Origin: Paenibacillus sp. FSL W8-0186 | GTDB taxonomy: Bacteria > Bacillota > Bacilli > Paenibacillales > Paenibacillaceae | DNA length: 64,000 nt | NCBI RefSeq assembly: GCF_037969765.1 | Contig: NZ_CP150207.1 | Coordinates: 5,153,501-5,217,500, forward strand | Reading direction: 5' to 3' | Part shown: in pieces, positions 52,619 through 63,555 of the stretch | How positions within the stretch are numbered: the stretch's first letter is position 1 | Layout: every line of letters begins with the position of its first letter | Position numbers and translations under genes: made by a program | Notes under the pieces: generated by a model | Database searches by the model: none | Seen by the model: only the letters and a program-made list of their open reading frames with translations | What the model was told of the DNA's origin: nothing

Positions 52619-55078
52619 TTATATCCCGTGATCCGAAGCCCCTTGTTGGTCCTGTTGGCCCTGTTGACCTTGATGGCCTTGCTGCCACTGCTGGCCTTGC
52701 TGCCACTGCTGGCCCTGCTGGCCCTGCTGGCCCTGTTGGCCCTGCTGGCCCTGCTGCCACTGCTGGCCTTGTTGGCCCTGTTGGCCCTGCTGCCACTGCT
52801 GGCCCTGTTGGCCCTGTTGACCTTGATGGCCTTGCTGCCACTGCTGGCCTTGCTGCCACTGCTGGCCTTGCTGCCACTGCTGGCCCTGCTGGCCCTGCTG
52901 GCCTTGCTGCCACTGCTGGCCCTGCTGGCCTTGCTGCCACTGCTGGCCCTGTTGGCCCTGCTGCCACTGCTGGCCCTGCTGGCCCTGTTGGCCCTGCTGG
53001 CCCTGCTGCCACTGCTGGCCTTGTTGGCCCTGTTGGTGGTTGAGTCCTATCGAGTTTTTATTCCGGCCCTCCCGAATGAGATGCTGCTCCCTGATCCTGT
53101 CTGGCGGAGTCCTTAAGATCCAAGCCGGCATACGGATGAACGTATCCTTCTGATCCTTCGGAACAAATGGTGTAATAGGAGCTAGATACGGAACTCCAAA
53201 AGATCGGAGACTGTTCATGTGGATGATCAGCATCACAATTCCCAGAGTAATGCCGTACAATCCGAACATGCCAGCCAAGACCATGAATACAAACCGGATC
53301 AGCCGTCCAGCAACAGCGATATTGTATGCAGTCGGCGCAAAACTGGAAATTCCCGTCAAGGCAACGACGATGACCATTCCCGGAGTAATCAGTCCCGCTT
53401 CAACCACGGCTGTTCCCAAAATAAGCGCACCCACAATCGATATCGTCTGCCCGACAGCTCTTGGCATGCGCAGCCCCGCTTCACGGAGCAGTTCAAAGGT
53501 AACCTCCATCAGCATCGCTTCGACAAATGCCGGGAAGGGTACTCCTTCCCGCTGGGCAAGCAGACTGACCAGCAGCAGTGAAGGAAGCATCTCATAATGA
53601 AATGTCGTCAGCGCGATGTATATAGCTGGTCCAAGAAGCAGTATGATGAAGCTGAGATAGCGAATCGAACGCATTATAATGCTGATATCGAAACGCTGGG
53701 AATAATCCTCCGGCGATTGAAAGAAATGGCCGAATACGGTTGGCAAAATTAAGACGAACGGGGTGCCATCAACAAGGATGATTACCCGGCCCTCCAATAA
53801 ATGTCCAGCCGCGGTGTCAGGCCTCTCTGTGTTAAATATGGTAGGGAACGGAGTAAAAGTCTTATCCTGAATAAATTCTTCGATATAACCGGATTCCAGT
53901 ACTCCGTTAAGCTGAACGTTCTCCAGACGCTGCCTGACTTCCTGAACAAGCTTCGGATCAGCCAGGCTCTGAATATACATCATAGCCACATTCGTATGAG
54001 AGACAGCGCCTATTTTCATGGTCTCCAGCCACAAATCCGCGTTTTTGATTCTGCGCCGAAGGAGGGAGATATTGGTTGCGATCGATTCAACAAAGCTGTC
54101 TTTCGGACCCCGGACGACTAGCTCCGTAGTAGATTCCGTAATGGATCTCCATTCTCCGCCACGGGTTCCGGCTATAATGGCTCTAGTGCTTCCCTCCAAA
54201 AATATAGCTGTATCCCCGGACAAAATATCAAACACCACATGGCTCCACTCAGAAACTATTTTTGATTCACCCAGGGACAGGAACTTGGTCTGCAATTGGT
54301 CCAGCATGGCTTCCGAATCCTTCGCTTCCAATTCCCCCAGACCGGATATGGTTTCCATAACAAAGGAATTGATAATCATTTGATCGCTTAATCCATTTAA
54401 GTAAATAACAGCGATAGAGGTCGGCTTTTCTCCCCCCAAACTCATTTTACGGACAACGATATCGGGGCTATCCCCGGTTTCTTTCTGGATGCGCTGTACG
54501 GTTTGCTGCAACTCCCCAGGAATTTCCCTATTATGGGTTCCGCCCTGTGGAATACTGCTCTGAAGAATAGGACTGCCTTGCGAATCAGCGCCTTCCTGGG
54601 AGCCGGTACTGCTCTGGGAGCCAGAAGTTCCTTGCGAGCCTGCACCTCCCTGTGCGGAATCTACCCGAGAGGTAGTTCCATTCGATGAACCGTAATCCCC
54701 CTGTGAATTTGCACCGGTCTGTGAGCTATTGCCATTTTGCAAGTTATCGCTGCTCTGTAACTCGGCTTGATTCTGCTTCCTACTGCCATTGCTCCGAGAT
54801 TCAGCATCACCATGCCGCACACTGCCGCTGCTTTCAGACCCAGCATCATTATGCGTGCTGCCGCTGCTTTGGATACCTGCATCATCCTGGTGTGTTCTAT
54901 CGCGGCTTTGAGGCTCCGCTTGATGCTGCTGAGAATTAGCATCCTTTCGGGAATCGGTCTCGTTTTTGTCTTGGCTTGTATCCCCGTCCGGTCTGCGATG
55001 ATGGTTGCCGTTCTTCCTCTGCTCTTGATTTCCTTGAATTTGGCGTCTGCTTCTACCGATAAATTGATTGCGTTTCAT
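52619..55078 (-). CDS. gerAA: Spore germination protein GerAA with low-complexity ends
   Basis: GerAA-family proteins form the core of germinant receptors. The usual ~490-residue core lies at about residues 190-680 (QRIQKETGDSPDIVVRKM, PDTAAGHLLEGRVIILVDGTPFVLILPT, AQREGVPFPAFVEAMLMEVTFELLREAGLRMP, then four or five helices). It is flanked by a ~185-residue Gln/Ser/Gly/Asp/Asn-rich N-terminus and a ~135-residue C-terminal tail of QQGQQGQQW-like repeats, giving 819 residues, far above normal. AGGAG precedes the ATG. It heads the operon. Frame is kept through the repeats because units are 9 bp. Confidence 0.92.
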   Translation of the reverse strand: MKRNQFIGRSRRQIQGNQEQRKNGNHHRRPDGDTSQDKNETDSRKDANSQQHQAEPQSRDRTHQDDAGIQSSGSTHNDAGSESSGSVRHGDAESRSNGSRKQNQAELQSSDNLQNGNSSQTGANSQGDYGSSNGTTSRVDSAQGGAGSQGTSGSQSSTGSQEGADSQGSPILQSSIPQGGTHNREIPGELQQTVQRIQKETGDSPDIVVRKMSLGGEKPTSIAVIYLNGLSDQMIINSFVMETISGLGELEAKDSEAMLDQLQTKFLSLGESKIVSEWSHVVFDILSGDTAIFLEGSTRAIIAGTRGGEWRSITESTTELVVRGPKDSFVESIATNISLLRRRIKNADLWLETMKIGAVSHTNVAMMYIQSLADPKLVQEVRQRLENVQLNGVLESGYIEEFIQDKTFTPFPTIFNTERPDTAAGHLLEGRVIILVDGTPFVLILPTVFGHFFQSPEDYSQRFDISIIMRSIRYLSFIILLLGPAIYIALTTFHYEMLPSLLLVSLLAQREGVPFPAFVEAMLMEVTFELLREAGLRMPRAVGQTISIVGALILGTAVVEAGLITPGMVIVVALTGISSFAPTAYNIAVAGRLIRFVFMVLAGMFGLYGITLGIVMLIIHMNSLRSFGVPYLAPITPFVPKDQKDTFIRMPAWILRTPPDRIREQHLIREGRNKNSIGLNHQQGQQGQQWQQGQQGQQGQQGQQWQQGQQGQQWQQGQQGQQWQQGQQGQQGQQWQQGQQWQQGQQWQQGHQGQQGQQGQQWQQGQQGQQGQQWQQGQQGQQGQQGQQGQQWQQGQQWQQGHQGQQGQQDQQGASDHGI
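52640..53035. repeat. 9-bp tandem repeats in the gerAA 3' end
   Basis: Nearly 400 bp consist of 9-bp units such as CAGGGCCAG, CAGGGCCAA and CAGTGGCAG (minus strand), grouped in higher-order blocks. In frame they give Gln-Gly-Gln and Gln-Trp-Gln. Copy number probably varies between strains without breaking the frame. Confidence 0.93.
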
Positions 55079-61228: not shown

Positions 61229-61257
61229 TTGAAAATAAATGCCAAAACGGATACAAT
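61229..61257 (+). promoter_or_regulatory. Sigma-A promoter of the leader ORF/ABC-F unit
   Basis: TTGAAA (61229-61234), exactly 17 bp, TACAAT (61252-61257), about 34 bp before the leader ORF start. Confidence 0.78.
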
Positions 61258-61290
61258 TTAAATAATTATATTTAGAAGGAGGTGGGTAGA

Positions 61291-61446
61291 GTGGATCGCA
61301 AGCTCGTATGGAATCGAATTAGCCAATTGCCTATGGCGTTATTTGGCATTTTTTATGGTGTGGCTGTCAACGGGATTAGTCTGTCCATTTTTAGCTATTC
61401 GATATCCAAATTACACTTGCGAAATGCCGCTCCTACCTTAACCTAA
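61291..61446 (+). CDS. 51-residue leader peptide/small hydrophobic protein
   Basis: This short gene starts with GTG, preceded by a very strong AAGGAGGTG site, and encodes MDRKLVWNRISQ followed by one hydrophobic segment (about residues 14-39) and a short polar end. I do not recognise a family. It has its own sigma-A promoter, and an intrinsic terminator begins 17 bp past the stop, before the ABC-F gene. It may be a leader peptide whose translation controls read-through, or an independent small membrane protein. Confidence 0.68.
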   Translation: MDRKLVWNRISQLPMALFGIFYGVAVNGISLSIFSYSISKLHLRNAAPTLT

Positions 61447-61463
61447 CGGAACGTTACGTGAAG

Positions 61464-61492
61464 AAGGCTGCAGAATTTCTGCAGCCTTTTTT
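61464..61492 (+). terminator. Intrinsic terminator/attenuator ahead of the ABC-F gene
   Basis: AAGGCTGCAG-AATTT-CTGCAGCCTT is a perfect 10-bp stem whose last Ts run on to give TTTTTT. No promoter is visible between it and the ABC-F start at 61552. Confidence 0.93.
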
Positions 61493-61551
61493 CGTCTCCA
61501 AGGTAGCTTTGCTTCGCTGGAAGCGGCATGAGCCAAAGGAGATTATAAAGA

Positions 61552-63555
61552 ATGATTATCCAATGTATAAATGTCCAAAAATATTACGGTGCCGAGCTGG
61601 TGCTCAGCGATGTTACCTTTGAAATCAAATCCGGCGAGAAGGTAGGCTTGATCGGCCGCAACGGAAGCGGCAAGACGACGCTGATGCGTCTTTTATCCGG
61701 CAGTGAAACGCCCGATCATGGCTCTATCGCCATCCGCAAGGACACTACGTTGGGCGTTCTCGCCCAGATTCCTGACTATGCCAGCCATATGACGGTATAC
61801 GATGTGCTGCAATCCGCCTTTGAGCCTTTGCTCGTGATCCATGCGCAAATGAGGCAGCTGGAAGCAGAAATGTCCGCGTTATCCTCGTCAGGCATGAACA
61901 CCTCTAACATGGACCGCCTGCTCCAGCAGTATGGAACCTTGCAGGAAGCCTTTGAGCGTAACGGCGGCTTTGAAATGGAGGCGTCCATCGAGCGGGTGAC
62001 TCATGGGCTCGGTATCTCTGCCAGTTCCTACAAGCAGGCCTTCAGCTCCTTATCCGGCGGAGAGAAGACGAAGATCGGTCTAGCCGTCATTTTGCTGCAG
62101 CAGCCGGATGTTCTTCTGCTTGACGAGCCGACCAATCATTTGGACCTGGCTGCCGTCCATTGGCTAGAGGAATTTCTGCATGCTTTTAAAGGTACCGTTA
62201 CCGTGATCTCCCATGACCGCTACTTTCTGGACAGGGTAGCCGATAAAATCATCGAAATCGAGGACGGTGAAGCATTTACCTACCCCTGCAGCTATAGCGA
62301 ATACAAAAATGAGAAAGAACGCAGGCTGCTCCAGCAATTTGCCAACTATCAAGAACAGCAGAAGAAAATTAAGAAAATGCAGGAGGCCATCAAGCAACTG
62401 ATTGAGTGGGGAAACCGTTCCAACCCGCCGAACGCGGGATTCCACCGCAGAGCAGCCTCCATGCAAAAGGCGCTGGACCGCATGGTCAAGCTGAAAAGGC
62501 CCGTGCTCGAACGAAAGCGCATCGACCTGCAGCTGTCGCAGTCTGACCGTTCCGGCAAAGATGTCATCGTCCTGCGGGAAGCAGGTAAAAGCCTCGGGGA
62601 ACGCACGCTGTACCGCGGTATAAATCATACGCTTCGCTACGGAGAGAACGCTGCCTTAATCGGCGGCAACGGTGCTGGAAAAACGACGCTCATGAAGTGC
62701 ATTCTAGGCATGGAACCCGTTCAGGAGGGGGAGATTCGGCTCGGCTCGCGGGTGGAAACCGGCTATCTTGCACAAGAATCGGCACCCAAGGACGACCCCT
62801 GCACGGTACTGGAGTATTTTCGGAATGGACTCGGCATGGAAGCCGGGGAAGCCCGTAATCAGCTTGCGCGCTTCCTTTTTTACGGAAGTGACGTTTTCAA
62901 GAAGGTTCATAGTCTGTCAGGCGGTGAATGGACGAGGCTGAGATTGGCTATGCTGATGTACCGCAAACCGAATTTGCTGCTCCTGGATGAACCGACCAAC
63001 CATCTGGACATCGACTCCCGGGAAGCCCTGGAGGACGCGCTCGAGGAATATCCCGGCTCTGTGCTCGTCATCTCCCATGACCGATATTTTATCAACAAAA
63101 TCGCAGACCAGATTTGGGAGCTTGCTGGAGGCAAAATGTTCATTACCGAAGGCGGCTATGCCGACTATCAGGCTGAGCTGAATAAGCGGAAGCCTGCGGC
63201 AAACGGACAGTCCGCGCAGGCATACGAATTCAGCGCGGCGAGAGATTCCGCTCTCCCCAAATTGCCCGCTTCGGAAGCTTCCCCTAACGGAAAAATGCGA
63301 AACAAAGCAGAGCAGATCTCGGGGCAAGAGCACGATCCTTCTGCCTCTTCCGCCGCTAACCCTGCCACGCTCCGCAAAATGGAACAGGAGATATCCTCCA
63401 TGGAGCAGAGGATTGCACAGATCGATGAGGCTATGCTTGATCCGGGCATCGGGAGCGACGCAGATAAGCTGAACGTTCTGCTGGAGGAGCGTGTTGAAAT
63501 TCAGCGGACTCTCGATCCGCTCATTGATAAATATATTTCCCTTTTAGAAAAGTGA
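61552..63555 (+). CDS. ABC-F family ATPase (ribosome-associated)
   Basis: This 667-residue protein has two ABC domains and no membrane helices. Walker A motifs are GRNGSGKTT (35-43) and GGNGAGKTT; signatures LSGGEKTKI and LSGGEWTRL; Walker B VLLLDEPTNHLD and LLLLDEPTNHLD. The interdomain linker (about 240-310, KKIKKMQEAIKQLIEWGNRSNPPN) reaches toward the peptidyl-transferase centre in ribosome-bound relatives, and a C-terminal coiled coil follows a disordered stretch. Functions range from translation rescue to antibiotic protection; YdiF-like housekeeping versus resistance cannot be settled. AAAGGAG precedes the ATG. Confidence 0.93.
   Translation: MIIQCINVQKYYGAELVLSDVTFEIKSGEKVGLIGRNGSGKTTLMRLLSGSETPDHGSIAIRKDTTLGVLAQIPDYASHMTVYDVLQSAFEPLLVIHAQMRQLEAEMSALSSSGMNTSNMDRLLQQYGTLQEAFERNGGFEMEASIERVTHGLGISASSYKQAFSSLSGGEKTKIGLAVILLQQPDVLLLDEPTNHLDLAAVHWLEEFLHAFKGTVTVISHDRYFLDRVADKIIEIEDGEAFTYPCSYSEYKNEKERRLLQQFANYQEQQKKIKKMQEAIKQLIEWGNRSNPPNAGFHRRAASMQKALDRMVKLKRPVLERKRIDLQLSQSDRSGKDVIVLREAGKSLGERTLYRGINHTLRYGENAALIGGNGAGKTTLMKCILGMEPVQEGEIRLGSRVETGYLAQESAPKDDPCTVLEYFRNGLGMEAGEARNQLARFLFYGSDVFKKVHSLSGGEWTRLRLAMLMYRKPNLLLLDEPTNHLDIDSREALEDALEEYPGSVLVISHDRYFINKIADQIWELAGGKMFITEGGYADYQAELNKRKPAANGQSAQAYEFSAARDSALPKLPASEASPNGKMRNKAEQISGQEHDPSASSAANPATLRKMEQEISSMEQRIAQIDEAMLDPGIGSDADKLNVLLEERVEIQRTLDPLIDKYISLLEK

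Follow-up and report, generated by a model that had tools for sequence, protein, structure and literature searches.

It is usual to regard the attenuators of genes for resistance to ribosome-targeting drugs as independent inventions, with leaders and hairpins of their own. In the sections devoted to vmlR of Bacillus subtilis, a leader ORF, a pause hairpin and a terminator are described in that order (PMC9226507). According to the passages on tlrB (yxjB) of the same species, a NusG-dependent pause is needed so that translation of the leader starts before the start region is sequestered (PMC6851288). A further account places tlrB, vmlR and ribD among pause-controlled leaders and mentions a NusG-dependent pause reported for the ribD leader (PMC12288461).

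Here we describe a locus of Paenibacillus sp. FSL W8-0186 (NZ_CP150207.1, one 5.66-Mb genome), contained in a stretch of 64,000 nucleotides referred to below as the window. We consider it probable that positions 61229-61552 constitute a ribosome-controlled transcription attenuator of an ABC-F gene with a built-in RNA-polymerase pause. Attenuators of this kind are already known, and what is new is an element that this one shares with other leaders. The parts of the locus are as follows.

61229-61257, + strand: sigma-A type promoter TTGAAA-17-TACAAT (promoter pattern scan)
61276-61282, + strand: Shine-Dalgarno sequence AAGGAGG of the leader ORF (sequence; conserved in the 28-leader alignment)
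61285-61301, + strand: segment A, the leader start region, predicted to pair with segment B (RNAalifold, pair counts)
61291-61446, + strand: leader ORF of 51 codons, GTG start at 61291, stop TAA at 61444-61446 (NCBIfam RAxF-45; coding signature)
61369-61392, + strand: shared nucleotide element AACGGGATTAGTCTGTCCATTTTT, candidate RNA-polymerase pause (cross-genome comparison)
61417-61444, + strand: segment B (TTGCGAAATGCCGCTCCTACCTTAACCT), predicted to pair with A or with the left arm of the terminator (alignment, pair counts)
61464-61492, + strand: intrinsic terminator, whose left arm, from 61464, is segment C (conservation, covariation)
61535-61541, + strand: Shine-Dalgarno sequence AAAGGAG of the ABC-F gene (by reading)
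61552-63555, + strand: ABC-F ATPase gene, 667 aa (NF000355)

Everything that the initial annotation had listed is present, namely the promoter with its 17-bp spacer, the 51-codon ORF with its Shine-Dalgarno sequence, the terminator beginning 17 nt past the leader stop and the ABC-F gene with its ribosome site; the most conserved feature, the element at 61369-61392, was absent from that description. The remark that the ABC-F gene lacks a visible promoter of its own also holds, no + strand match between 61492 and 61552 being listed by the pattern scan. In 27 aligned leaders, -35/-10-like boxes were judged by eye to occupy the equivalent place. The core stem of the terminator is formed by 61466-61474 and 61478-61486, and A-U pairs extend it from 61464 into the T tract; this continuation of the stem into the T tract is, we think, why the pattern scan did not list the terminator at this locus. 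The region 61262-61500 folds with -82.3 kcal/mol against a mean of -58.8 for shuffled sequences (z -5.2; 0 of 200 shuffles as low). Upstream lies a divergent gene for a cystine-type binding protein, and downstream of the ABC-F gene an HhH-GPD base-excision gene starts. The ABC-F product scores 486.3 bits (cut-off 380) against NF000355, 'ribosomal protection-like ABC-F', in the NCBIfam profile scan, and among the best 25 of 198 NCBIfam matches no named resistance subfamily (Msr, Vga, Lsa, OptrA, Sal, CplR and others) reached its cut-off. A further ABC-F-like match in the same genome (L005) has one internal TAA. Elsewhere in the window, on the minus strand, we noted a ZTP riboswitch (RF01750, 58.7 bits, 1105-1187), the sole Rfam hit at gathering score, and an 819-aa ORF (52619-55078) that by reading resembles a GerA-type germination protein with a long QQGQQWQ repeat tail.

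The 51-residue leader reaches 38.3 bits (cut-off 27) against NCBIfam NF041642, RAxF-45, and is by score a member of that family. The profile matched in 32 of 40 genomes of the genus (E <= 0.01), 116 of 295 genomes of the family and 111 of 398 genomes of the class (E <= 0.001), and in none of 14 control genomes at those thresholds. A subset of the listed matches, 131 loci (L009-L139), was fetched; L011, a weak match with E 0.63, was dropped, as was L013, whose leader duplicates another from a near-identical genome, leaving 129. In 121 of these an ABC-F gene lies within about 600 nt downstream. The initial annotation had named conservation of the small ORF without the ABC-F gene as an argument against an attenuator; among the 129 loci there are eight such exceptions, four of them Erm-type leaders (L010, L038, L094 and L103; Erm calls by reading), the others being a locus with no recognised gene (L037), a contig end (L089), an unrelated weak match (L104) and a decayed ABC-F gene, a remnant by reading, that keeps its leader and element intact (L020). 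It had also pointed to comparison of the leader ORF and terminator in related genomes, where both proved to be kept.

Within the leader ORF there is a coding signature, with a synonymous fraction of 0.43 in frame versus 0.19-0.23 in the other frames (leader L026, with a 3-nt insertion, was omitted from this count), and the upstream half (QLPMA...), which carries such a signature, may have a role as a peptide. The C-termini are read in different frames among relatives, ending in RNAAPTLT, NCEMPLLP or KCRSYL..., and the L017 leader stops before segment B, which there lies behind the stop codon. The nucleotides of segment B are nonetheless near-invariant even though relatives read the segment in different frames, and it would therefore act as RNA.

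Conservation in the leader is highest in a nucleotide element, roughly AACGGGANNVGTVTGYCCWTTTT, with about 15 near-invariant letters; it resembles a peptide motif, NGISLSxF, but is a nucleotide motif. Among the 128 profile-picked loci (the 129 RAxF-45 picks minus L104), Gly is encoded by GGG in 125, the fourth codon of the block is AGT, CGT or GGT (Ser, Arg, Gly) in 127, and the sixth is TCC, CCC or TCT in 127. Over a larger set of 252 distinct loci, some picked by the element itself and some by the leader profile and hence no random sample, automatic calling, which contains errors and found no leader start for 49 loci, placed the element in frame 0 in 151, in frame 2 in 7, in frame 1 in 5 and past the leader stop in 39. 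Behind ErmD-type leaders it is untranslated, and in the fexA leader annotated on plasmid pwo28-3 it is read as TTGSVCPF. Fixed codon choice, other frames and untranslated copies thus speak against conservation of RAxF-45 by way of the encoded protein, and the comparison shows the element and segment B to be constrained as nucleotides, beyond what codons alone would explain. A conserved stalling peptide at the element was considered as the sole explanation and rejected on the same codon-choice and frame data. The element's own hairpin in the RNAalifold consensus has three pairs and is invariant; covariation of its inner pairs was sought and none found, the one inner pair tested being paired in 50%. 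No description of the element or of RAxF-45 was found in open-licence papers, in a check that included the literal text of 13-letter pieces of the element and the name 'RAxF-45'; older subscription papers on ermK and fexA could mention it.

Searching 20-140 nt upstream of the element, we found a Shine-Dalgarno sequence with a start codon in 201 of the 252 loci, at a median distance of 81 nt (quartiles 79 and 84), and 196 of these 201 starts fall within 60-100 nt; at 492 control places inside genes such a combination occurred at 76, of which 24 were within 60-100 nt. On the downstream side, 209 of 252 loci have a terminator-like stem within 330 nt, versus 9 of 243 places inside genes.

In pattern form, ACGGGANNNGTNTGYCCNTTTT, the element has matches in 98 of the 398 Bacilli genomes and in 50 of the 145 genera, and the reversed pattern used as a control gave 0 among the matches listed for the 398 Bacilli genomes. 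Two of 288 other genomes of the phylum have it, in both cases behind an ErmD-like leader, once before an MFS exporter and once before an ABC-F gene. We classified 119 of 120 element matches (contig 7 of G443 was not fetched): 85 precede ABC-F genes, 5 Erm, 5 a G748 methylase (RlmA-like), 1 Cfr, 10 MFS exporters, FexA- and Mef-like ones included, 2 Mph/APH, 3 acetyltransferases, and 8 other or unrecognised genes. ABC-F genes were called by a Walker A plus SGGE pattern (78) or by reading (7, one of them a remnant), and the other classes were named by reading. When 10 representatives were scanned with profiles, Cfr and Erm passed their cut-offs; the Mef-, Mph-, FexA- and G748-methylase-like ones gave matches below the strict named-gene cut-offs, the FexA-like gene being cut at the locus end, and L216, L143 and L140 gave no profile match. 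At one locus (L159) the G748-methylase gene begins about 1 kb downstream of the element. A further scan yielded at least 80 loci, 44 of them before ABC-F genes by pattern; about 12 carry titles from outside Bacilli, and these we take as mostly chance matches.

The element is also found on plasmids. The fexA leader region that contains it matched 161 plasmid records, most from Enterococcus and Staphylococcus, and in 154 the match covers at least 80% of the region; a plasmid search with the Cfr-type leader region gave no match. On pwo28-3 itself (L374, 1641-2060) the element of the fexA leader stands in another frame and is followed by a terminator-like hairpin. The genome analysed here has a second copy, untranslated, in the leader region of an ErmD-like gene, past the leader VTHSIRLRFPTLNR (L010, 1290-1660, from contig positions 2786203-2789241); a Mef-like MFS gene adjoins it divergently. 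Other placements were seen as well: around position 1501 of L158 the element comes directly after an apparent FMN riboswitch (by eye), ahead of a ribD-like gene; in three loci of one genus of the family (L216, L217, L218) it precedes GNAT-type acetyltransferase genes; and a variant, TGTGGATAACGGGATTCGTATGCCCATTTT, occurs at L144, L171, L219 and L294 with no evident leader, the next gene in L144 and L294 resembling a nitrite/sulfite reductase. Overall, comparison across genomes shows the element at a near-fixed distance from leader starts and also before other ribosome-drug resistance genes.

Folding of the leader was studied in an alignment of 28 leaders (that of the window and 27 others of the genus) that omits the Erm leaders, L012 and leaders without a loose match to the element, such as L019. 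Unaided, RNAalifold returned the A:B helix, a mini-hairpin at the element and the terminator. The terminator is present in 28 of 28 leaders, and its extended stem has two-sided changes in 6 of 16 pairs, one pair being U-A in 15 sequences and A-U in 12. In the A:B helix, which joins 61285-61301 to 61417-61437, 90.3% of cells are paired over 7 pairs, 100% over 3 and 97.0% over 6; most pairs are invariant across the 28 leaders, and one of the 16 changes on both sides (U-A in 18 sequences, G-C in 5). Taking terminator and A:B together, 91.4% of cells are paired, versus 39-58% when the helices are slid, and 24 cells have two-sided changes versus 9.3 in shuffles. One measure speaks against A:B: the number of further pair types, 16, is no better than the shuffled 16.8 and is reached by 446 of 500 shuffles. 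The A:B helix is a candidate anti-antiterminator, which would also hide the leader start codon. For B:C, 95.5% and 97.6% of cells keep their pairs, which are nearly invariant and show no covariation, and which therefore prove nothing; B:C is a putative antiterminator. By comparison, leader, element, segment B, terminator and gene co-occur, and the terminator covaries.

We read the element as a pause because it is placed between A and B, and because the tlrB pause precedes the hiding hairpin. It fits the letters G-11 G-10 T-3 Y-1 G+1 in 127 of the 128 profile-picked loci, against 61 of 25600 background positions, a fit that was noticed after the fact; G-11 and T-3 are consensus-pause letters, and the register places the RNA 3' end at T61382. 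The sequence likewise carries G-10, Y-1 and G+1, the letters given for the consensus elemental pause (PMC12288461). Behind the element, the NusG motif TTNTTT is present in 92 of 252 loci and lacking in the other 160, as it is in the window, so that a reading based on NusG only is not supported. The NusG of this genome carries VRNTPGV, a stretch that in our reading includes N81 and T82, the residues reported to recognise pauses (PMC12288461). We infer that RNA polymerase pauses at the element, so that a ribosome can load on the leader while the 3' part of the switch has yet to be transcribed, and that stalled ribosomes are probably the signal.

In the model that we favour, RNA polymerase would first transcribe the ribosome site and start codon of the leader (segment A) and would be slowed about 80-90 nt later, at 61369-61392, before segment B exists, a slowing that would give the ribosome time to load. 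With no ribosome held, A would pair with B, B would be kept off the terminator, the terminator would form and the gene would be off. A ribosome held in the leader, by a drug or by other translation trouble, would keep A from B, and free B would pair with the left arm of the terminator as it emerges, allowing read-through into the ABC-F gene and turning it on. At equilibrium B:C should lose to the free stem of the terminator, with its roughly 15 pairs, and the model therefore needs kinetics.

The attenuator could work as proposed and the element could still be something other than a pause, namely a site recognised by its RNA or DNA sequence, whether by a factor or by RNA polymerase itself, such as an antitermination or coupling element. 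This would explain the long and exact consensus, since some 15 near-invariant letters exceed, in length and strictness, what an elemental pause or a T-rich NusG site would require, and it would sit well with the missing TTNTTT motif and with the fixed distance to the leader start. We nevertheless hold it unlikely: there is no candidate factor, Rfam has no family at the element (window, gathering score), and in the accounts of tlrB and vmlR a pause is shown at the equivalent place of the same kind of leader.

That a ribosome held at the very end of the leader masks the left arm of the terminator, as the initial annotation had proposed, with the element as incidental coding sequence, finds some encouragement in the stop codon lying 17 nt from the stem and in the coding signature; it is improbable, and stalling at the leader C-terminus was rejected, because the last codons lie in different frames among relatives, and in L017 beyond an earlier stop, while their nucleotides are almost unchanged, and because conservation of the element extends to copies that are read in other frames or lie outside ORFs. 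We give very little credence to the view that RAxF-45 is a genuine small protein that has a function in its own right, whose transcript is ended by the terminator and to which the ABC-F gene is merely a neighbour. NCBIfam does name a protein family, and synonymous changes are in excess in frame; yet the one decayed ABC-F locus among the eight lacking a recognised intact ABC-F gene has kept its leader, none of the eight is free-standing in another context save for the Erm-type leaders, the scan gives the ABC-F gene no promoter of its own, and the constraint on nucleotides is strict. The related suggestion of a separate small membrane protein was rejected: leader frames differ, and the ORF, the terminator and the ABC-F gene travel together, the linkage in 121 of 129 loci and the terminator in all 28 leaders disfavouring it. 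The same two counts lend good support to the ribosome-controlled attenuator that the initial annotation had suspected.

That a short signal of the leader switch also stands before unrelated resistance genes suggests that the switching-on of such genes is timed by a common signal. In its broadest form, for which we find belief and doubt in balance, AACGGGANNVGTVTGYCCWTTTT would be a reusable, sequence-specific module setting the timing of RNA polymerase relative to the leader ribosome, placed about 80 nt behind the leader start in Bacilli attenuators of otherwise unrelated genes for resistance to ribosome drugs (ABC-F, Erm, G748 methylase, Cfr, FexA- and Mef-like exporters, Mph) and moving with those genes on plasmids. 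If true, drug-inducible attenuators would for the first time have a cis element in common, and one that is partly filed in databases as a protein family. Such a signal would allow drug-inducible resistance genes, including those with unrecognised products, to be found by DNA pattern alone, would make the synchrony of RNA polymerase and leader ribosome testable across many genes, and would correct a database protein family.

Set beside the described systems, the locus has kin of several degrees. RAxF-45 (NF041642) is a named protein family, yet its best-conserved block is nucleotide-constrained. ErmD-type leaders (MTHSMRLRFPTLNQ-like) have the same element about 45 nt past the leader stop, followed by a terminator, as on the B. 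licheniformis plasmid pBL141-1, where it lies ahead of ErmD; they differ from the locus in having another leader peptide and an untranslated element. The drug class of ErmD is the macrolides, other than that of the window's system. With cplR of C. difficile the locus has in common an ABC-F gene, a short leader ORF, a terminator and a hidden ribosome site; the leader there is MR[I/M], and the passages on cplR do not mention an element of the window's type (PMC10201436). A vmlR-like, ribosome-mediated attenuator ahead of the ABC-F gene is well supported by the comparison of genomes: a leader ORF with a Shine-Dalgarno sequence lies between promoter and gene, an intrinsic terminator lies between leader ORF and gene, and a candidate anti-antiterminator involves the leader ORF, with thin covariation. 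The sections on vmlR share with the window the ABC-F gene, the leader ORF inside the anti-antiterminator, the terminator, the order of parts, a three-way pairing arrangement like A/B/C and a pause hairpin with a T-rich tract, to which the candidate pause may be likened; the vmlR leader ORF is the tripeptide MIN as against 51 codons here, pausing occurs there at TTATTT, downstream of a hairpin that contains GCUAUUU, and those sections do not mention the element described here (PMC9226507). For tlrB, the passages describe a drug-stalled leader ribosome, a terminator, a hidden ribosome site and a NusG-dependent pause, to all of which the locus may be likened; the tlrB leader has 9 codons (MIIQFIRYR), and the tip of its terminator hairpin serves as the pause hairpin (PMC6851288). 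From the toeprint at U74 and the pauses at U129-U131 given there (PMC6851288), the leader start and the pause of tlrB are by our calculation about 91-94 nt apart, a distance close to the geometry of the locus.
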